A DNA stretch of 64,000 bases from positions 3,547,501 through 3,611,500 of the forward strand of contig NZ_CP102263.1 in NCBI RefSeq assembly GCF_025147485.1. Direction: 5' to 3'. This DNA comes from Bacteroides uniformis. Its GTDB lineage: Bacteria; Bacteroidota; Bacteroidia; Bacteroidales; Bacteroidaceae. The translations under genes and the position numbers were made by a program. Below the pieces are notes generated by a model that had not been told where the DNA came from, did no database searches, and was given only the letters and a program-made list of their open reading frames with translations. Below are positions 53,517 through 58,955 of the stretch, piece by piece (positions within the stretch are counted from its first letter, which is position 1; every line of letters starts with the position of its first letter).

Positions 53517-53561
53517 GTTTGCGGATGTCTATCCCAAGCCTTGGGATAGACATCCGCAAAC
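53517..53561. repeat. 45-bp near-perfect palindrome
   Basis: 22-bp arms (start GTTTGCGGATGTCTATCC) around a single central C. A partial third arm (GGGATATGTATCCGCA) follows at 53563-53579. No T tract. Might extrude as a cruciform or fold into a long RNA hairpin upstream of the patatin gene. Confidence 0.8.
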
Positions 53562-53629: not shown

Positions 53630-53808
53630 TTATTTCTTTGCGATTGCTTTCAGCAGTGCATATCCTCCAAACCACTGAATCAGCATGCCCGGAATGCCCA
53701 TACGGAAATCTTGCACTGCCAAAAAGAAATTACCGCACAGTGCCCATTCAAAGGCCGTACCGATAATTTGATAGGAGAGGATTACACCCAGCAATGCCAA
53801 TAAAGAGA
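53630..53808 (-). pseudogene. ECF transporter S component, C-terminal half
   Basis: From the target duplication the frame reads SLLALLGVILSYQIIGTAFE onward to GGYALLKAIAKK and a stop at 53630, two membrane helices. It has no start codon of its own; the visible GTG lies in transposon DNA. It continues exactly the frame broken at 58548, so this is the severed end of that gene. Confidence 0.85.
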
Positions 53809-53849
53809 CCCAATTATATACTTTAATGCACCAATCACACAAAAATAAA

Positions 53850-53881
53850 AGCCGCACCCAAATTCAAACTTAGGTGCGGCT
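53850..53881 (-). terminator. Terminator of the 138-aa passenger gene
   Basis: 9-bp stem AGCCGCACC/GGTGCGGCT with a 14-nt loop; on the minus strand TTTTATTTTT follows. 40 bp past the stop at 53922. Confidence 0.8.
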
Positions 53882-53921
53882 ATTTTAGAAAAATTTATTA
53901 TATCCATATTATTAATTCATA

Positions 53922-54338
53922 CTAACAGAAAACAATATAGTTAAAATAACAAGTTATATTAGCATTTTCTTTTTGCAATCTTATATCACCTGTTGTACCA
54001 TTAAAACTAACCTTAAGTGTATTTTTTAGCTCAAGTTTTTTTAACGTAAACTCAACATCATAAATCTTTATATCAAATGTCATAACAGCACCATTATCAG
54101 CTTTAGGAATTAATAAACATGACGGTATTGGTATATATGGAGTTCTATTATTCCATTCTGAAATTGTATTTTCTATCCATATAAACAAATAATTCCAAGG
54201 TGCTCCACCAGGGTTTACGGTATAATCAGAATTATCAAAAGTAATACTACGTGATTGCCAATTCAAGTATTCTTTAAATCTTGCATTTATATCCGCTTTT
54301 GTAGGACACTCATTTGATGCCAAATCATTCCAAGCCAT
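53922..54338 (-). CDS. Passenger protein 4, unknown
   Basis: 138 aa starting MAWNDLASNECPTKADINARF in two parts, beta-rich, without signal peptide or membrane segment. A strong Shine-Dalgarno (AGGAAGGAGG) precedes the ATG. It stands as its own unit with terminators before and after. No family recognised. Confidence 0.6.
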   Translation of the reverse strand: MAWNDLASNECPTKADINARFKEYLNWQSRSITFDNSDYTVNPGGAPWNYLFIWIENTISEWNNRTPYIPIPSCLLIPKADNGAVMTFDIKIYDVEFTLKKLELKNTLKVSFNGTTGDIRLQKENANITCYFNYIVFC

Positions 54339-54443
54339 AATGTGCCTCCTTCCTGCTCAGGATTTTACAATTTCCTTTAAGATGTTTAACACATTTACGA
54401 GGTGGTACACCAATGGTGGATTTCGTCACTTGATTACCTAAAT

Positions 54444-54453
54444 GGGGGGGGGG
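54444..54453. repeat. 10-G homopolymer upstream of passenger 4
   Basis: Ten G in a row (plus strand), 106 bp upstream of the 138-aa gene start. Such tracts slip in length during replication and can switch promoter spacing; whether this one does is unknown. It is also a place for assembly error. Confidence 0.5.
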
Positions 54454-54517
54454 ATATTAGGAATCTTTCTTTACACATAAATCTGTATTTCAATTTATGA
54501 TTTATATATGTATAAAA

Positions 54518-54557
54518 CAAGACCGTATCTCAATACTTATACTTTGATACGGTCTTG
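54518..54557 (-). terminator. Terminator of the three-gene passenger operon
   Basis: 12-bp stem CAAGACCGTATC/GATACGGTCTTG with a 16-nt loop, followed on the minus strand by TTTTATAC, 22 bp after the 253-aa gene's stop. Confidence 0.85.
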
Positions 54558-54578
54558 CCAAAATTCTCTATATTCAAA

Positions 54579-55340
54579 TCATTTCTTCAACACTTTAGCT
54601 ATTTTTCCAAATAGTCCAGCTTTTTTATAATCCCATTCTTCTGCTTTCTTTTCAAAATACGGTATCATCTTATTGTGCTCATCCAGACATTTCAATCTCA
54701 TCAATTTAGTATCAAATTCAGTCCGACACCTACGATAATCTTCTTCATCCATTGACTTCAACAATGGGCCTAATATAGGTATAGGAGGAGCAGGTGCAAA
54801 ATATTCTGCTACATCTTCTACCAAATGGGAAAGTCTGTCTATCAGTTTTTTTACTTGTACATCGGTTGTTTTATTTTCATCTTTATTTGTATTCTCTATC
54901 TTTTCCACCTTCTTCACAACTTCTACCTTCTTTTGGGAAAAAGCTTCAAACGGGAACATATAAACTACTGAACATTGTTCAATGGCAGAATTAGACTTCA
55001 AATAAGCAGAAACATAAGGCTCATTACCCAAAATGTCCTTATTATCTCTTTTGTTTTCATTTCTCGCCTTAGCATTCCAACGGAAATCGCTATCAACCAT
55101 TGAATTAGCCCAAGTACACCAAGCAATAGTACCCCCTACCATCCAAACTTTAAAATACTTATCGCCTTCTTCTCCCGCATATTCAAATGCTTTCTGCGGA
55201 CTCAAAATGATAATATCACTTTGATTAATATCCGTAAAATTAACTTGCTTTCCTTTACGCAAAGCATTCACGATTTTATCAAACAATACTTCATTGTTTG
55301 CTTTCAAATACTCTAAAACTGAATTTTCATTATTGCTCAT
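54579..55340 (-). CDS. Passenger protein 3, unknown
   Basis: 253 aa. Residues 1-130 look like one alpha/beta domain with Trp-rich VWMVGGTIAWCTWANSMVDS and a FRWNAKARNENK loop. A Lys/Glu coiled-coil linker (~135-160) leads to a helical domain with DRLSHLVEDVAEYFAPAPPI. No catalytic motif. 20 bp downstream of the membrane-protein gene, so part of the same operon. Confidence 0.65.
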   Translation of the reverse strand: MSNNENSVLEYLKANNEVLFDKIVNALRKGKQVNFTDINQSDIIILSPQKAFEYAGEEGDKYFKVWMVGGTIAWCTWANSMVDSDFRWNAKARNENKRDNKDILGNEPYVSAYLKSNSAIEQCSVVYMFPFEAFSQKKVEVVKKVEKIENTNKDENKTTDVQVKKLIDRLSHLVEDVAEYFAPAPPIPILGPLLKSMDEEDYRRCRTEFDTKLMRLKCLDEHNKMIPYFEKKAEEWDYKKAGLFGKIAKVLKK

Positions 55341-55360
55341 ATCTTCTCATTTTAATGTTT

Positions 55361-55633
55361 CTACCCAATTATCAAATTTCCGATAAACCACACTGCAAAA
55401 GCTGTCATATTGGCTACACCAAGTTTCTTTATAAAGATACCGAATGCAGAATTTACCCAAAAATCTCTTGGGGCAATCGTTACTTCCACACTCAAAGCAT
55501 ATCCTATAAAGAATGCTATAATACCAAATACTCCAGCAAGTCCCGAAGCTGCACTTTCAGCCCAAAACATAATATCTATTGCAACTAATGCAATGATATT
55601 CAATACTAACAATACGAATGTTATACAACCCAT
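55361..55633 (-). CDS. Passenger protein 2, small membrane protein
   Basis: 90 aa with three membrane helices (FVLLVLNIIALVAIDIMFW, GLAGVFGIIAFFIGYALS, MTAFAVWFIGNLIIG). 7 bp downstream of the UDG-like gene. May be an effector or anchor of the cassette; unknown. Confidence 0.65.
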   Translation of the reverse strand: MGCITFVLLVLNIIALVAIDIMFWAESAASGLAGVFGIIAFFIGYALSVEVTIAPRDFWVNSAFGIFIKKLGVANMTAFAVWFIGNLIIG

Positions 55634-55640
55634 AATTCTA

Positions 55641-56459
55641 CTATTTTAATGATTCAACAATTTCATCTACATATACATTTGCAACATTTTCAGTTGTTGC
55701 TTTAATATCTTCTAATATTGGAAACCTTTTGACTATCGCTCCTCGTGCAGTTCCCGACAAATGCGGCAACATTATTGATTTGGCATTTACCACACATTTA
55801 TCTAAAACCTCTTTCGCTTTCTTACCTAAACAAACACAAAGATTTGGTCTCACTAAGTCTAATTCTTTTTGCAATATATCAGTATATACCTCTAATTTAC
55901 TTTCTAAACAGGTTTTAGACATTTCTCTATCATGTACAAAATACTTATTCGCATCAGTCAGGTATATTGCAAACTCTTTCTTAATCAGACTATTAATCAA
56001 CAAATCTGCCATTTTACCACCACTTCCACTTTTTCTATGGGTTGCATCATGCAGCCCAAATGGACTTGATACTATCGCATCATGGCATTCTTCATACCAT
56101 TTCGCATCACGTAACGGGTCTTGCGCAATAAGCATAATTCGGACATTATCGACTTGAACATTAAACCAAGTCGGCAAATCCAAACCTATTGCACCTTTAT
56201 CTGTAAAATCTTTTCTAAACAATGGATTCAAAATGGGAATACAAACAGAGGTAGTATCTGTATATCCATTAAAAGGCTTCAAATCATCGGAAAACTCTTT
56301 TTGCCATTCTGCATACGAGAAGTCATAGCACTTTCTCATTTGCTTATAACGAGCCTTTAACATATCTAATTGCTGAATACCCAACAATTCATCAGCAACT
56401 AACTTTGGAATATCATCCGACAAATGACAATCATTGCAGAAGACTGTTATCATACACAA
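55641..56459 (-). CDS. Passenger protein 1, UDG-superfamily-like
   Basis: 272 aa. VRIMLIAQDPLRDAKWYEEC (residues ~107-126) resembles glycosylase motif A, and IMLPHLSGTARGAI near residue 230 resembles the HPS-type motif; LDLVRPNLCVCLGKKAKEVL is the strand-helix seen between them in many UDG-like proteins. The N-terminal ~90 residues are an extra domain with a C-x-x-C-like pair (FCNDCHLSDD). Uracil removal, or base recognition without catalysis, are both possible. First gene of the operon. Confidence 0.65.
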   Translation of the reverse strand: MCMITVFCNDCHLSDDIPKLVADELLGIQQLDMLKARYKQMRKCYDFSYAEWQKEFSDDLKPFNGYTDTTSVCIPILNPLFRKDFTDKGAIGLDLPTWFNVQVDNVRIMLIAQDPLRDAKWYEECHDAIVSSPFGLHDATHRKSGSGGKMADLLINSLIKKEFAIYLTDANKYFVHDREMSKTCLESKLEVYTDILQKELDLVRPNLCVCLGKKAKEVLDKCVVNAKSIMLPHLSGTARGAIVKRFPILEDIKATTENVANVYVDEIVESLK

Positions 56460-56734
56460 TCACTTTGCGCTCCCCCAGTCTCAAAGAAAGCATTTTCTAA
56501 AATAGGGAAGGCGCAAGACTGTTATCAAATTCCGTCAATGGGTTCTGGACTACCTCTGCACCGAAAAATGAAAACAGCTCACGCCTTTGGCTGTATATCA
56601 ACACATCAGTGCTATATATGCAAACCAAAGGGAGCATTCTTTCATATTCCTCAGTGCAGGTGAATTGTCCAGATTCATTGACAAGGAATAAGCTAAACGC
56701 TTCCTAAACTATGTCTGTCCCTCTTGGGACAATG

Positions 56735-56742
56735 CAAATATA
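56735..56742 (-). promoter_or_regulatory. -7 box for passenger operon
   Basis: TATATTTG on the minus strand, about 275 bp before the UDG-like start, implying a long leader across 56460-56730. That leader has no gene I can support. Confidence 0.4.
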
Positions 56743-56812
56743 GGAACTATTTAGCAAAAATGCTACTTCGTGAACTGCTCTTTTTCTATTTTCAATTCAA
56801 ATTTACCTATTC

Positions 56813-57778
56813 TTATGGGGAAATCAAACTTTGATACTTTAATCTTTTATATGCTGACATCGTAAAATAAGTAAATCTTTCAACATCTGTTAGTCCTCTC
56901 GTATTATATCTAAATGCAAATTCATCACAGTATTTATCCAAATGCTTTGGACTTACTTTATGATATATTCCTAATATTCCACGTTTCAAGTGTGACCAAA
57001 ATCCTTCAATACTATTGGTATGGAATCCGTCTTTTACATATTCACCAGTACTATGTTCAACTACTTTATGAATATAATTTTTCGATATTCCAGTATAACC
57101 TTTCCATCCATCTGTTATAACGGTAGAACCTTCCTTGACTAAAGTATTGATTATCGTTTTCAAAACCTTTCCACCGGTATTTGGAACAACGGCTGTATAG
57201 GCCATTCCATTAGATAATAGACCTACTACGGGAGTCTTTACTTTAAGGCTTCTTCCTTGTGCATTCTTTACTCTACCTTTATTCTTACCACCGACATAGG
57301 TTTCATCAACTTGTGTCATATCATTAAATTGAACTACAAGCTTGTCTTTCAAATTATGTCTTATCCGTTCCAACATAAACCAAGCTGTTTTCTGTGTTAC
57401 ATCTATATCCTTAGATAATTGTATGCTACTTATTCCTTTCTTATGGGCTAAGAATATATACAATGCATAGAACCATTTCTTTAATGACACATGACTACCT
57501 TCAAACATTGTACCAATAGTAACCGTAAATCTTTTCTTACATCGTTTACATTTATATAGTCCTTTAAATTCTCCATTAGACTTTAACTTATAATGCTCTT
57601 TCGTTTGACAATTACAGTGTGGGCAAATCGGTTCTCCACGCCATTTAATATCTTCAAGAAATTCTCTGCATGATTTTTCATCATAAAAGGATTTCATCAA
57701 ATCAATAAATGACTTTACTTCTCGCATTTGTTTATTCTTCTTTATTATTTCTACAATATTGATTATTTCTGTTTCCAA
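56813..57778 (-). CDS. IS1595-family (ISXO2-like) transposase
   Basis: 321 aa. N-terminal zinc ribbon (CPHCNC near residue 52, CKRCKK near residue 77), HTH (ISSIQLSKDIDVTQKTAWFM), and the catalytic core: Asp in TQVDETYVGGKNKG, Asp in VITDGWKGYTG, and the C-terminal HTNSIEGFWSHLKRGILGIY with YCDEFAFRYN. Complete, so the element may be active. Confidence 0.93.
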   Translation of the reverse strand: METEIINIVEIIKKNKQMREVKSFIDLMKSFYDEKSCREFLEDIKWRGEPICPHCNCQTKEHYKLKSNGEFKGLYKCKRCKKRFTVTIGTMFEGSHVSLKKWFYALYIFLAHKKGISSIQLSKDIDVTQKTAWFMLERIRHNLKDKLVVQFNDMTQVDETYVGGKNKGRVKNAQGRSLKVKTPVVGLLSNGMAYTAVVPNTGGKVLKTIINTLVKEGSTVITDGWKGYTGISKNYIHKVVEHSTGEYVKDGFHTNSIEGFWSHLKRGILGIYHKVSPKHLDKYCDEFAFRYNTRGLTDVERFTYFTMSAYKRLKYQSLISP

Positions 57779-58529
57779 TTGACATGTTATTTTTATTATA
57801 TAAATATAATAAAAAATCCTAACATATAAAACATAAGTGATTAAAAATTAGATACTTAAATAAACAATTGGATATAATTATCATATACATATATCCTGTA
57901 ATTATTGCTCATTTATAATCATTAACCAAGTGCTTCCAGTACGATACTTGGAACACTTGGTTTTTACTACCATGAAAACTACTTTGGCGAATTATACCCA
58001 AATCCAATCTCAAGTGTTATCTACTTAGGATTCTTTAACAAAATTCTTTGATTCACTTGAAAACACGGTTAAAAACAGAACTTGACTGCCGTAAACAATC
58101 AAGTTCTTAATGCAAATTTACCAATCTCCCTTAATCAATTCGATTAAGGACTTAATCAGCCAAATGCGGTATAATATTTGGTAGATTTTTACTGTAAAAC
58201 ATAAAACGCTGTGAAGCGTTCTAATCAATTCTTTTAATTTTTTCATAATTATAATCTCTCCATTTGAGGAGATTACAGTATTTATTTACCGCTTTTTACC
58301 AAATTTGGCTGATTTACATAAAGGAGCATTATTTAACCTTTATAAATCGGTTTTCTGATACTGAAAACCGATTTTTTTATCGAATTTCGACTATTATCTA
58401 TGATATTAGAAACAAAGTTTAACAGAACTAACGTTTTGATTCACTTGAAAACGGGCATAAAAAATAGGGAAACCTAAAAGATTTCCCCATTGAAATAAGA
58501 TATAAATAGATAGAATTAAAATTAGTACA
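57779..58529. other. ~750 bp structured non-coding stretch of the transposon
   Basis: No reading frame of note. A hairpin of AACCAAGTG type followed by TTTTTA (about 57921-57965), a strong terminator-like hairpin ATCGGTTTTC/GAAAACCGAT plus seven T (about 58345-58378), and two direct repeats of GATTCACTTGAAAAC (about 58051 and 58438). Could hold one or two small RNAs or just transposon end sequence. Confidence 0.5.
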
Positions 58530-58547
58530 TTAAAGTATATAATTGGG

Positions 58548-58886
58548 TAAAGAGATATTCTTGGCATAGCGTGCAGCAAGAGCGGCGGTTCCGGCCAGCA
58601 GACCGGACTTTATAAGTATGGCCGGCAACACGGCTGCTGCAGGCATGGCAAAAAGCAGATGATTGATGACCGGAGACAAGAGAGCCGTCAGCAGACCTAC
58701 CTTGAAACCATATTTATAAGCAGCTATCAGTGTAAAGAAATAGATGGGAAGCAACGTCGGACCGCCTGCTGGGACCAGATGGCAGAGTTGCGGCAAGGCG
58801 ATGTTTCCTGCCACGAACAGCAGGGCGAATAGATAGGTCTTTACGTTGCCGAAAGGCAAAGAATAAAGTTTTGCAGATGTTTCCAT
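58548..58886 (-). pseudogene. ECF transporter S component, N-terminal half
   Basis: 113 codons from the ATG at 58886 (METSAKLYSLPFG; an in-frame ATG at 58904 is possible) to the insertion. Hydrophobic helices such as YLFALLFVAGNIALPQL and AAAVLPAILIKSGLLAGTAA, ending RYAKNISL. After the insertion only PNYIL and a stop follow. Joined to 53630-53808 it makes a ~169-aa S-component-like membrane protein, of the kind that binds a vitamin for an ECF importer. The natural ligand is unknown. Confidence 0.8.
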
Positions 58887-58955
58887 TTGTATAATATTAT
58901 GCATTAGTTGATAAATCTATTTTTATTATGACTGTTTAAAACTGAAAAGGTTTAA

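Follow-up and report, generated by a model that had tools for sequence, protein, structure and literature searches.

Within a 64,000-nt window of the Bacteroides uniformis genome (the whole stretch of DNA that was analyzed), a known kind of transposon carries a member of an undescribed Bacteroidales leader RNA family, which is probably an attenuator-type gate on cargo directed against base-modified phage DNA. The insertion of the transposon is itself ordinary. The unusual part is the RNA, whose core of ~210 nt was matched by a covariance model in 87 of the 119 sampled genomes of the genus and is yet absent from Rfam 15.

The IS1595-family element and its target gene

The feature is almost certainly a transposon of the IS1595 family with cargo, which jumped into the gene of an S-component-like membrane protein. 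The parts of the insertion are as follows.

53630–53800, minus strand: target gene, 3' part outside the duplication (ORF list and joined translation)
53801–53808, no strand: left copy of the 8-bp target duplication, TAAAGAGA (direct reading)
53809–58547, no strand: whole IS1595-family element, 4,739 bp (ends, duplication, and comparison with the copies L007 and L008)
53809–53828, plus strand: terminal inverted repeat at the cargo end, CCCAATTATATACTTTAATG (20/20 against the other end)
56813–57778, minus strand: transposase, 321 aa from TTG, open frame (NF033547 5.4e-59, PF12762 2.3e-38, PF12760 2.2e-10)
58528–58547, minus strand: terminal inverted repeat at the transposase end, CCCAATTATATACTTTAATG (20/20, 0 mismatches)
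58548–58555, no strand: right copy of the 8-bp target duplication, TAAAGAGA (direct reading)
58556–58904, minus strand: target gene, 5' part outside the duplication (ORF list and comparison with relatives)

A first-pass annotation had described a recent IS1595-type insertion with an exact 8-bp target duplication and perfect 20-bp terminal inverted repeats, and both structures were confirmed by reading the two flanks and the two ends. When up to three mismatches were allowed, CCCAATTATATACTTTAATG matched the window only at the two element ends (0.01 matches expected), and none of 100 shuffled windows contained two or more such matches. No further exact match occurred in the genome as a whole (4,629,452 bases in a single contig), which contains one copy of the element. 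Its GC content was 32.4%, versus 45.4% in the remaining window. The transposase scored above the cut-off of all three relevant models, with 199.6 bits for NF033547 (cut-off 75), 132 bits for the ISXO2-like DDE transposase domain PF12762 (cut-off 27), and 40.8 bits for the N-terminal zinc ribbon PF12760 (cut-off 25.4), which bears out the family assignment. Passenger genes are already known from IS1595 elements and had been anticipated here; four cargo ORFs were found besides the transposase.

The search for copies with the same ends yielded two close relatives in other species, at other sites and with other duplications. One, in B. stercorirosoris DSM 26884 (L007), comprises 4,465 bp with end matches of 20/20 and 19/20 and the duplication TATTTTTT; the other, in B. 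bouchesdurhonensis (L008), comprises 4,319 bp with both ends at 20/20 and the duplication TTGGTTTA, and sits, as judged by eye, within an ABC ATPase gene. These two copies and the one in the window diverge at both outer parts of the element. Among 80 fetched transposase relatives, many of those lacking an exact 8-bp repeat being cut by contig ends, 42 had such a repeat together with end matches of at least 17/20. Since the duplication is perfect, the transposase frame is intact and two other species have near-identical transposases, the jump is likely recent, in agreement with the first-pass annotation. Searches of the element by blastn gave no match in phages and five plasmid records with a coverage of at most 13%.

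The two halves of the target gene were said to rejoin in frame, and indeed a single frame (...AKNISLLALLGVIL...) results once only one TAAAGAGA is kept. Counted on the translation, it has 175 codons from the first ATG and 169 from the second. The first half had matches in 31 of 61 genomes (own genome included). The best foreign relative (L154, from genome G290) was 88% identical, has an open frame of 177 aa, and aligned without gaps over 526 bp across the insertion point, and this point was spanned by a single alignment in 16 of the 29 fetched relatives (L154–L182); uncut versions of the gene thus exist in other species, as predicted. As to the naming of the target as an ECF transporter gene, the split of a membrane gene stood, but the ECF label is weak: for the first half, the score of PF12822 (ECF transporter S component) was 20.7 bits (cut-off 30.7), and this model did not match a 118-aa stretch of relative L154 at E up to 0.01. 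We rejected the expectation that the strain should lack this importer, because a paralogue that is 66% identical over residues 7–121 lies in an open frame of 195 aa elsewhere in the same genome (G000:C1:3973119-3973466).

A structured RNA between transposase and cargo

The block between transposase and cargo is very probably a real leader RNA, with the following predicted parts.

56735–56742, minus strand: candidate −7 promoter box TATATTTG, beginning 29 nt before the match to the RNA model
56505–56713, minus strand: structured leader RNA core, ~210 nt (matched by the R1 covariance model with 171.7 bits; R1 was built in part from this copy)
56676–56682, minus strand: outer helix, 5' strand GUCAAUG, pairing with 56534–56540 (both-side changes in 7 of 8 pairs)
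56534–56540, minus strand: outer helix, 3' strand CAUUGAC, pairing with 56676–56682
56667–56673, minus strand: second helix, 5' strand UCUGGAC, pairing with 56544–56550 (100% of cells paired, both-side changes in 5 of 7 pairs)
56544–56550, minus strand: second helix, 3' strand GUCCAGA, pairing with 56667–56673
56578–56587, minus strand: pseudoknot, 5' strand AAGGCGUGAG (long-range; alignment and context analysis)
56508–56517, minus strand: pseudoknot, 3' strand CUUGCGCCUU (long-range; alignment and context analysis)

The minimum free energy of the predicted fold was −124.9 kcal/mol (z = −7.99), and none of 100 shuffles folded as well. The proposed helices and the long-range pseudoknot are backed by compensatory changes. 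In an alignment of 28 sequences, 94.2% of the cells were paired, compared with 29.0–51.1% in slid controls; 22 of the 33 pairs had changed on both sides, and 124 both-side-changed cells were counted versus 31.4 ± 4.7 in shuffles. The first RNA alignment (A2) left out L106 and L111 for an inserted arm, L098 as nearly a copy of L099, the doubtful L114, L015 (half) and L117 (script anchor); L116 is absent from that list. For 32 sequences outside the model, the model helices were 93.9% paired with 201 both-side-changed cells versus 63.4, in an alignment fitted to those same helices, and 36 of 500 shuffles reached the observed number of pairs changed on both sides. The pseudoknot, which is absent from the model, was 85.4% paired in the same sequences (81.8% shuffled, 37.2–54.7% slid) and showed 15 both-side-changed cells versus 6.9 in the control. 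The number of pseudoknot pairs changed on both sides was reached by 143 of 500 shuffles and the number of pair types by 184 of 500, and one slid version had more pairs and more types.

Neither this RNA nor the nature of the cargo was mentioned in the first-pass annotation.

A conserved protein gene in place of the RNA was considered and rejected. The open frames in the block (on the sense strand, 46 aa in the window and 73 and 76 aa in L009 and L022; on the antisense strand, 79 aa in the window and 85 aa in both L007 and L008) are not common to the relatives, the indels, inspected by eye, do not come in threes, and a start codon stands in register at one conserved site in 38 of 105 loci.

Genomic setting and possible function of the RNA

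Besides the 87 of 119 genomes of the genus, the covariance model matched 75 of 295 genomes of the same order, and single genomes contained up to 14 copies. It is not promiscuous, since only 3 of 296 genomes in a phylum sample (own included) matched at E up to 1e-5. Because R1 scored 27.8 bits on the opposite strand of the window RNA, the matches below 30 bits (L015, L026, L039) rest on strand and place. By comparison, the RNA belongs to a family with a conserved pseudoknotted fold that is spread over the Bacteroidales.

The surroundings of the RNA were compared in a set of 105 loci, which left out L114, L015, L098 and L128, never included L119, L130, L132 and L136, which duplicate loci of the set, and lacks L010, whose 3' end is cut off and which is counted among the IS1595 sources. 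An ORF on the same strand, called by a set rule and not from annotation, lay downstream of the RNA in 101 of the 105 loci at a median distance of 55 nt; four loci had none. The start codon followed the RNA by 35–80 nt in 68 loci; a start at this distance was seen for 3 of 105 on the opposite side and strand, and for 28 of 525 random points. The motif TAnnTTTG (TATATTTG in the window), which we take to be the consensus of the Bacteroides-type −7 promoter box, was present within the 70 nt preceding the RNA in 88 of 105 loci, compared with 3 of 102 for the stretch 300–370 nt upstream; we judged this count by the positional control because the shuffle control mixed poorly (mean 31 of 105). With a close same-strand gene downstream and a candidate promoter box upstream, the RNA has the placement of a cis-acting leader.

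A full promoter was considered and rejected, with support for the −7 type box only. A conserved TTTG lies 12 nt above it, which is too near for a −33 box.

The RNA was found in 18 of 84 IS1595 sources, in every case directly after the transposase. Among the 89 RNA loci that were not found through IS1595, 12 had a recombinase upstream (8 tyrosine, 4 serine), while in 76 the preceding 1,400 bases contained no match to any of four recombinase queries, and a confinement of the RNA to mobile elements was rejected on these grounds. Whether an undescribed class of large pseudoknotted leader RNAs gates envelope and accessory genes of Bacteroidales, and was adopted separately by unrelated mobile elements (IS1595, tyrosine-recombinase and serine-recombinase elements) as a common control on their cargo, including enzymes against base-modified phages, appears to us an evenly balanced question.

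In the reading that we favor, the cargo mRNA would begin with the RNA as its 5' leader, which would gate cargo expression by attenuation. The 3' strand of the pseudoknot is mostly followed by a U-rich, terminator-like tract (in the RNA set, 6.5 of 10 bases after the pseudoknot were T, versus 3.0 further down). A complement of the 5' strand was present upstream in 15 of the 31 first-set sequences, the window copy not among them; letter-shuffled controls gave 2.8 (at most 8) and partner-swapped controls 11.0 of 31, and the covariation of this complement itself is thus slight, as 15 is little above 11.0. A complement of at least 6 nt to the 3' strand lay between RNA and start codon in 43 of 105 loci (41%), compared with 11.5% in the partner-swapped control (highest of 200 swaps, 20%). 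As both pseudoknot strands have such complements, upstream and downstream, mutually exclusive folds are possible. The window copy has a weak tract behind the pseudoknot (CCCTATTTTA) and a strong downstream hairpin instead, and its upstream complement spans 5 bases, with none of 7 found, which makes a plain terminator logic doubtful for this copy. Overall, the case that the RNA works as an attenuator stands about level with the case that it does not. If it does, the transposon would bring along a promoter and a leader of its own to serve the cargo, and if the RNA senses something, many Bacteroidales genes would be under one common signal.

We consider it unlikely that the RNA is a free small RNA terminating at the U-rich tract and targeting other transcripts, with the cargo having its own promoter below. 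This would agree with the promoter box before the RNA and the U-rich tract after the pseudoknot, and a multicopy sRNA family, FopS, is reported in Bacteroides (PMC11697453). However, the start codons cluster at 35–80 nt far above random points, although only sequence or model score had served to select the loci, and the complementarity extends into the stretch before the start codon.

Quite unlikely is a leader that was brought along by a captured chromosomal gene and has no role for the transposon. Most copies not anchored in IS1595 indeed lack the recombinase queries upstream, and a hydrophobic N-terminus was found for 48 of 84 genes behind RNA copies outside IS1595; the count was 2 of 16 for genes that follow IS1595 copies and 7 of 64 for the genes of the window. 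Yet in IS1595 elements the RNA is kept while the cargo changes (UDG-superfamily proteins, PvuRts1I-SRA nucleases and others), and a 200-base RNA block starting at 56703 is identical at 200 of 200 positions in L007 and in L008, whereas the UDG-gene blocks of the three copies are 92–99% identical (one transposase block, 99–100%).

It is improbable that the structure acts as DNA, namely as a folded single-strand recombinase site for loading or exchanging cargo like attC in integrons. The position of the module between transposase and cargo in IS1595 elements, the 12 loci behind tyrosine or serine recombinases and the variable cargo of elements with a common transposase and RNA would fit such a site, but the 76 loci without the recombinase queries, the narrow start-codon distance with its promoter box, and the G-U pairs kept in the helices (e.g., in 22 of 28 sequences at one pair) argue against it, and unrelated recombinase types would have to use one common site.

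A leader peptide inside the RNA whose translation drives attenuation is very improbable. An ATG, GTG or TTG stands in register at a conserved GAAUCUGGAC site in the 38 loci noted above, but 47 of the 105 have another codon there and 20 have no site by the set rule; the starting frames are mostly short and of unlike lengths (6–76 codons, median 13), and pairing at the GAAUCUGGAC columns is kept by compensatory change. That the element is an ordinary IS1595 transposon with meaningless cargo and the RNA signal an alignment artefact, as the known passenger-bearing elements of this family might suggest, is strongly disfavored by slid and shuffled controls, which for most measures were well below the observed values in each of two separate sets of sequences, and by the selectivity of the model in the phylum sample.

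Cargo and comparison with known systems

The element encodes four cargo proteins downstream of the RNA.

55641–56459, minus strand: cargo 1, UDG-superfamily protein, 272 aa from TTG (PF03167, 29.5 bits, cut-off 24.3)
55361–55633, minus strand: cargo 2, 90 aa, membrane protein by eye (no match above cut-off in family scans)
54579–55340, minus strand: cargo 3, 253 aa (conserved ends and variable middle among the three copies)
53922–54338, minus strand: cargo 4, 138 aa (no DNA match at the same place in L007 and L008)

An alternative ATG start of cargo 1 at 56453 (270 aa) lies 51 nt after the end of the RNA model. The catalytic motif of the UDG superfamily is GQDPY-like and contains an acidic residue. 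Cargo 1 has A-Q-D-P-L, with Q113, D114, P115 and L116 invariant and a further LPHLSG motif near-invariant in 40 aligned sequences, and belongs, by this motif and the PF03167 score above cut-off, to the superfamily. The PDB profile match of the UDG family was weak, the best being 4zbx (E = 0.094, listed together with 4zby). A small protein similar to cargo 2 follows the UDG gene in L011, as seen by eye. PADLOC-DB 2023 gave no match for any of the five element proteins tested, PHROGs returned nothing informative on the cargo, and cargo 3 and cargo 4 matched nothing in PADLOC, PHROGs or family-profile scans.

The cargo survey (A6) covered 100 proteins (95 of 174 listed, four from the window and one from L007) and left out, by eye, transposases, near-duplicates and some others. 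Behind the RNA of IS1595 elements lay PvuRts1I-SRA nucleases (L023, L026 and L039 by family scan; L027, L029 and L032 by eye, on the first 45 residues), UDG-superfamily proteins and others. PvuRts1I-SRA nucleases act on modified cytosine, and the cargo of the RNA-bearing IS1595 elements suggests a mobile reservoir of enzymes directed at base-modified phages. By analogy, the cargo in the window would be an anti-phage operon, in which cargo 1, the first enzyme, would remove a non-standard base from the DNA of phages in the manner of Brig1 and Brig3. We see equal grounds for and against cargo 1 being a defence glycosylase.

In common with other IS1595-family transposons bearing passenger genes, the element has a zinc-ribbon DDE transposase, an 8-bp duplication, terminal inverted repeats and passengers; it differs by the structured leader RNA between transposase and cargo and by the outer parts that vary among its three close copies. 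The RNA resembles Rfam leader RNAs and attenuator-type riboswitches in its predicted 5' leader place, its candidate promoter box, its large pseudoknotted fold and, in the set as a whole, its U-rich tract, but no Rfam 15 family matched two sets of 20 RNA loci (E up to 1) or the element (E up to 0.5), and searches of an open-licence library and of Rfam 15 yielded no published description of it. A survey of structured RNAs in the human microbiome reported 28 candidates whose most frequent neighbors were integrase, sortase or phage domains (PMC8040213), and another study listed 104 candidate structured RNAs (PMC2864571). No matching motif was found in the passages covered, and their candidate sets may contain an earlier, unnamed prediction that overlaps the leader RNA.

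PvuRts1I-like SRA nucleases, which serve modification-dependent restriction, are the cargo of sister IS1595 elements with the same RNA, and in the window element a UDG-superfamily protein takes their place. Brig1 and Brig3 are anti-phage glycosylases of the UDG superfamily (PMC11078745, PMC13160076), and the Brig1 paper names the S. tokodaii enzyme 4ZBY as a close structural homologue. Cargo 1 is placed in the same superfamily by PF03167, and its best PDB profile match, 4zbx, is listed with this Brig1 homologue. Compared with Brig1 and Brig3, the putative glycosylase cargo 1 lies in a transposon beside a small membrane protein.

The insertion and its closest copies

In the window, 4,739 bp are bounded by two perfect 20-base ends, inverted relative to each other, and TAAAGAGA, read directly, flanks the element on each outer side. 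The inverted ends, the exact 8-bp duplication and the IS1595 type proposed in the first-pass annotation were thus all confirmed, the last by curated models applied to the transposase. The end sequence matched twice in the window, with only 0.01 matches expected by chance, so the paired matches are no accident; no further exact match occurred in the 4.63-Mb genome that the window comes from. The element's closest copies lie in Bacteroides stercorirosoris and B. bouchesdurhonensis. They share its ends (apart from one base at one B. stercorirosoris end) and differ from it in 8-bp duplication and target; the B. bouchesdurhonensis target is an ABC ATPase gene as judged by eye. The target gene, predicted to be intact elsewhere, is uncut in relatives, where one gap-free alignment spans 526 bp through the insertion point. 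Based on the ends, the duplication, the sister copies at other targets and the uncut target, the insertion is very likely recent. The earlier proposal of a recent jump into an ECF transporter gene therefore stood as to its recency and less well as to the target, which is only weakly ECF-like by profile. Because of this weak profile and because a paralogue with an open frame persists in the same genome, loss of function through the gene split is less sure, and the expectation that the strain lacks the importer was not upheld. The insertion itself is ordinary.

Features of the element and its surroundings (window positions)
53809–58547: IS1595-type element
56505–56713, minus strand: structured RNA core of about 210 nt, between transposase and cargo
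57900 to ~54904: conserved part in 200-column blocks (transposase, RNA, cargo 1, cargo 2, first part of cargo 3)
54579–55340: cargo 3, a 253-aa protein; ends nearly identical, approximately residues 146–213 different in all three close copies
58047–58463, near the transposase end: 388-bp segment flanked by two 29-base repeats (86%); contains inverted repeats and a 42-aa frame, and is missing or altered in the two other copies
54444–54453: run of ten G between the 253-aa and 138-aa cargo genes; length variation is possible
53517–53561: perfect 22-base inverted repeat, arms 1 base apart, between a patatin-like gene and the split gene

When the window element was compared in blocks of 200 columns with the B. 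stercorirosoris (L007) and B. bouchesdurhonensis (L008) copies, the blocks of the conserved part were 92–100% identical, and both outer parts were patchworks. The last gene encodes a 138-aa protein in the window compared to an 80-aa protein in L007, and no counterpart of at least 60 aa was listed on that strand in L008. The variable middle of the 253-aa protein is what would be expected of a part under rapid change. The GC content of the element is 32.4%, compared to 45.4% around it.

Fold and distribution of the RNA

Attention fell on the block between the transposase stop and the first cargo gene because, unlike the cargo, it had DNA matches in more distantly related IS1595 elements. Its predicted fold is much more stable than that of shuffled sequences (MFE −124.9 kcal/mol, z −7.99), and a DNA search found it in 33 of 301 family genomes and 16 of 30 genera (own genome included). 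From a first alignment of 28 sequences, RNAalifold predicted a two-part helix in which 12 of 15 pairs had changes on both sides. Three further parts were added by eye: a hairpin at the apex, a small one on the 5' side, and a pseudoknot in which the sequence past the apical hairpin (GUGUGAGC type) pairs with the 3' end (GCUCACAC type). In these 28 sequences 94.2% of the cells were paired, 22 of 33 pairs were changed on both sides, and 124 cells were doubly changed, compared to 31.4 in shuffles; with partners slid by 1–3 columns, pairing was 29–51%.

The covariance model R1 was built without the pseudoknot, which was thus unknown to the model when we examined a second set of 32 matches from order and phylum searches, none of them used to build R1. 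For the R1 helices, to which this alignment was fitted, 201 doubly changed cells contrasted with 63.4 in shuffles; 36 of 500 shuffles reached as many pairs with changes on both sides. The pseudoknot was 85.4% paired (shuffles 81.8%, 0 of 500 as high; slid 37–55%) and had 15 doubly changed cells versus 6.9 in shuffles. Its counts of changed pairs and pair types did not exceed those of shuffles (reached by 143 and 184 of 500, respectively), and sliding by −1 yielded one more changed pair and one more pair type than the true version. Partner forms within single sequences include GCGUGGG with CCCACGC and AGUGUGGAG with CUCCACACU.

R1 detected five copies in the window's genome. Matches were found in 87 of 119 genus genomes (E up to 1e-4), with up to 14 copies in one. 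At E up to 1e-5, the order search matched 75 of 295 genomes, spread over 50 of 183 genera, and a phylum sample gave 3 of 296 genomes. The own genome is included each time, and these counts are lower bounds owing to stricter filters and few candidates per genome above 40 genomes. The RNA had no match in Rfam 15 and was not found described in the open paper library, supplementary tables lying outside that search, and an unnamed earlier prediction may exist. At the level of sequence comparison, the fold, spread and place of the RNA are shown.

Genomic place and possible action of the RNA

Genomic context was assessed at 105 loci with one match each, counting downstream ORFs on the same strand of at least 60 aa that start −30 to +450 nt from the model end. 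Such an ORF was present in 101 loci, at a median of 55 nt past the model end, and started at 35–80 nt in 68 of the 105 (controls: 3/105 off the other side on the other strand, 28/525 at random points). In the 70 nt upstream, 88 of 105 loci have a TAnnTTTG box, compared to 3 of 102 at 300–370 nt, and the ten bases past the pseudoknot contain on average 6.5 T, versus 3.0 further down. By a crude rule, a hydrophobic N-terminus was called in 48 of 84 proteins downstream of the RNA outside IS1595 elements, compared to 7 of 64 for the genes of the window and 2 of 16 for the proteins that come first in IS1595 cargo. Of the 89 loci not found through IS1595, 13 had a match in the upstream 1,400 bases to one of the queries, which were a tyrosine recombinase, two serine recombinases and an IS1595 transposase.

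Upstream recombinase types in the 89 loci
Tyrosine: 8
Serine: 4
IS1595 transposase: 1

These observations indicate that the RNA serves mainly as a leader for other genes; mobile elements of several kinds have it between recombinase and cargo. At five loci (L091, L097, L103, L118, L137) zinc-ribbon-like genes (MALVKCxxCG type) lie behind the RNA. L091 and L118 each have three such genes in succession, and in L091, L118 and L137 a small recombinase of the tyrosine or serine type is found alongside.

We propose that transcription would start at the TAnnTTTG box and that the RNA would fold as the polymerase leaves. The pseudoknot would close just ahead of the U-rich tract, favouring release or a pause, and other segments pairing with its strands would open the way. 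An upstream complement of at least 7 bases to the pseudoknot 5' strand occurs in 15 of 31 first-set sequences. Since 2.8 were obtained with letters shuffled but 11.0 with partners swapped, this complement is real in some loci and follows changes in a few, such as L103 (AAGTCGCTCACA with UGUGAGCGACUU). A segment 12–62 nt past the model end complements the region of the pseudoknot 3' strand (12 bases around its 5' part) over at least 6 bases in 43 of 105 loci, compared to 11.5% with partners swapped. In the window's RNA copy there is no upstream complement of 7 or more bases, the U tract is poor, and the pseudoknot 3' strand is taken up by a strong hairpin; because of these features, control may act on translation instead in this copy. 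We give the RNA an even chance of acting as an attenuator, and have somewhat more confidence in the explanation as a whole, which we consider the best.

Cargo of the IS1595 elements

R1 was applied to 84 IS1595 sources: the window, three loci of its genome and 80 relatives of the transposase. In 18 of them the RNA was present, on the same strand as the transposase and just past it (E up to 1.1e-4). Three of these score below 30 bits, close to what the window reaches on its opposite strand (27.8 bits); it is strand and place that support them. By their record titles, the named RNA-bearing sources are Bacteroidales. Chryseobacterium, Flavobacterium and Streptococcus loci had no R1 match at E up to 0.01, and some Bacteroidales loci (e.g. 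L020, L045, L076) also had no R1 match.

The cargo behind the RNA varies between elements. UDG genes follow the RNA in the window, L007 and L008; L011 and L033 have them further along the operon. A scan identified PvuRts1I-like, SRA-domain nucleases behind the RNA in L023, L026 and L039, and such nucleases were recognized by eye in L027, L029 and L032. A PADLOC survey of 100 IS1595 cargo proteins yielded, among the best 25 of 134 families, type IIG restriction enzymes (4 members) and BstA (2); the type IIG restriction-modification count (4/100) refers to the whole survey and not to single loci such as those of Streptococcus. Some IS1595 elements thus carry defence genes. The cargo is of known kinds, of which the window's is a new member.

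A second gene follows the PvuRts1I-like nuclease in L023 (9245–10081, 278 aa; no Pfam match at E up to 0.01) and L039 (9346–10083, 245 aa). The streptococcal elements (among L042–L078) are mostly about 5 kb long, most with exact 8-bp duplications, and several passenger genes recur. The window's genome also contains a different IS1595-type element twice (L004 1035–3734, L005 1035–3733). Because the two are 99.93% identical over 2,700 bp and each has its own exact 8-bp duplication (AAAAAAAG and TAAAAGAA), this pair points to recent movement in this genome.

For the UDG-like protein, 232 homologues were obtained at E up to 0.001; in 40 aligned sequences Q-D-P-L is invariant and L-P-H-L-S-G nearly so. 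By analogy, base excision on phage DNA would be its likeliest job, at about even odds. Brig1 and Brig3, two UDG-superfamily proteins, reportedly protect against T-even phages through the excision of modified cytosine (PMC11078745, PMC13160076). The nearest PDB profile match of the window's protein is the 4zbx enzyme (E 0.094, no proof alone). It is listed together with 4ZBY, which the Brig1 paper names as a close structural homologue (PMC11078745).
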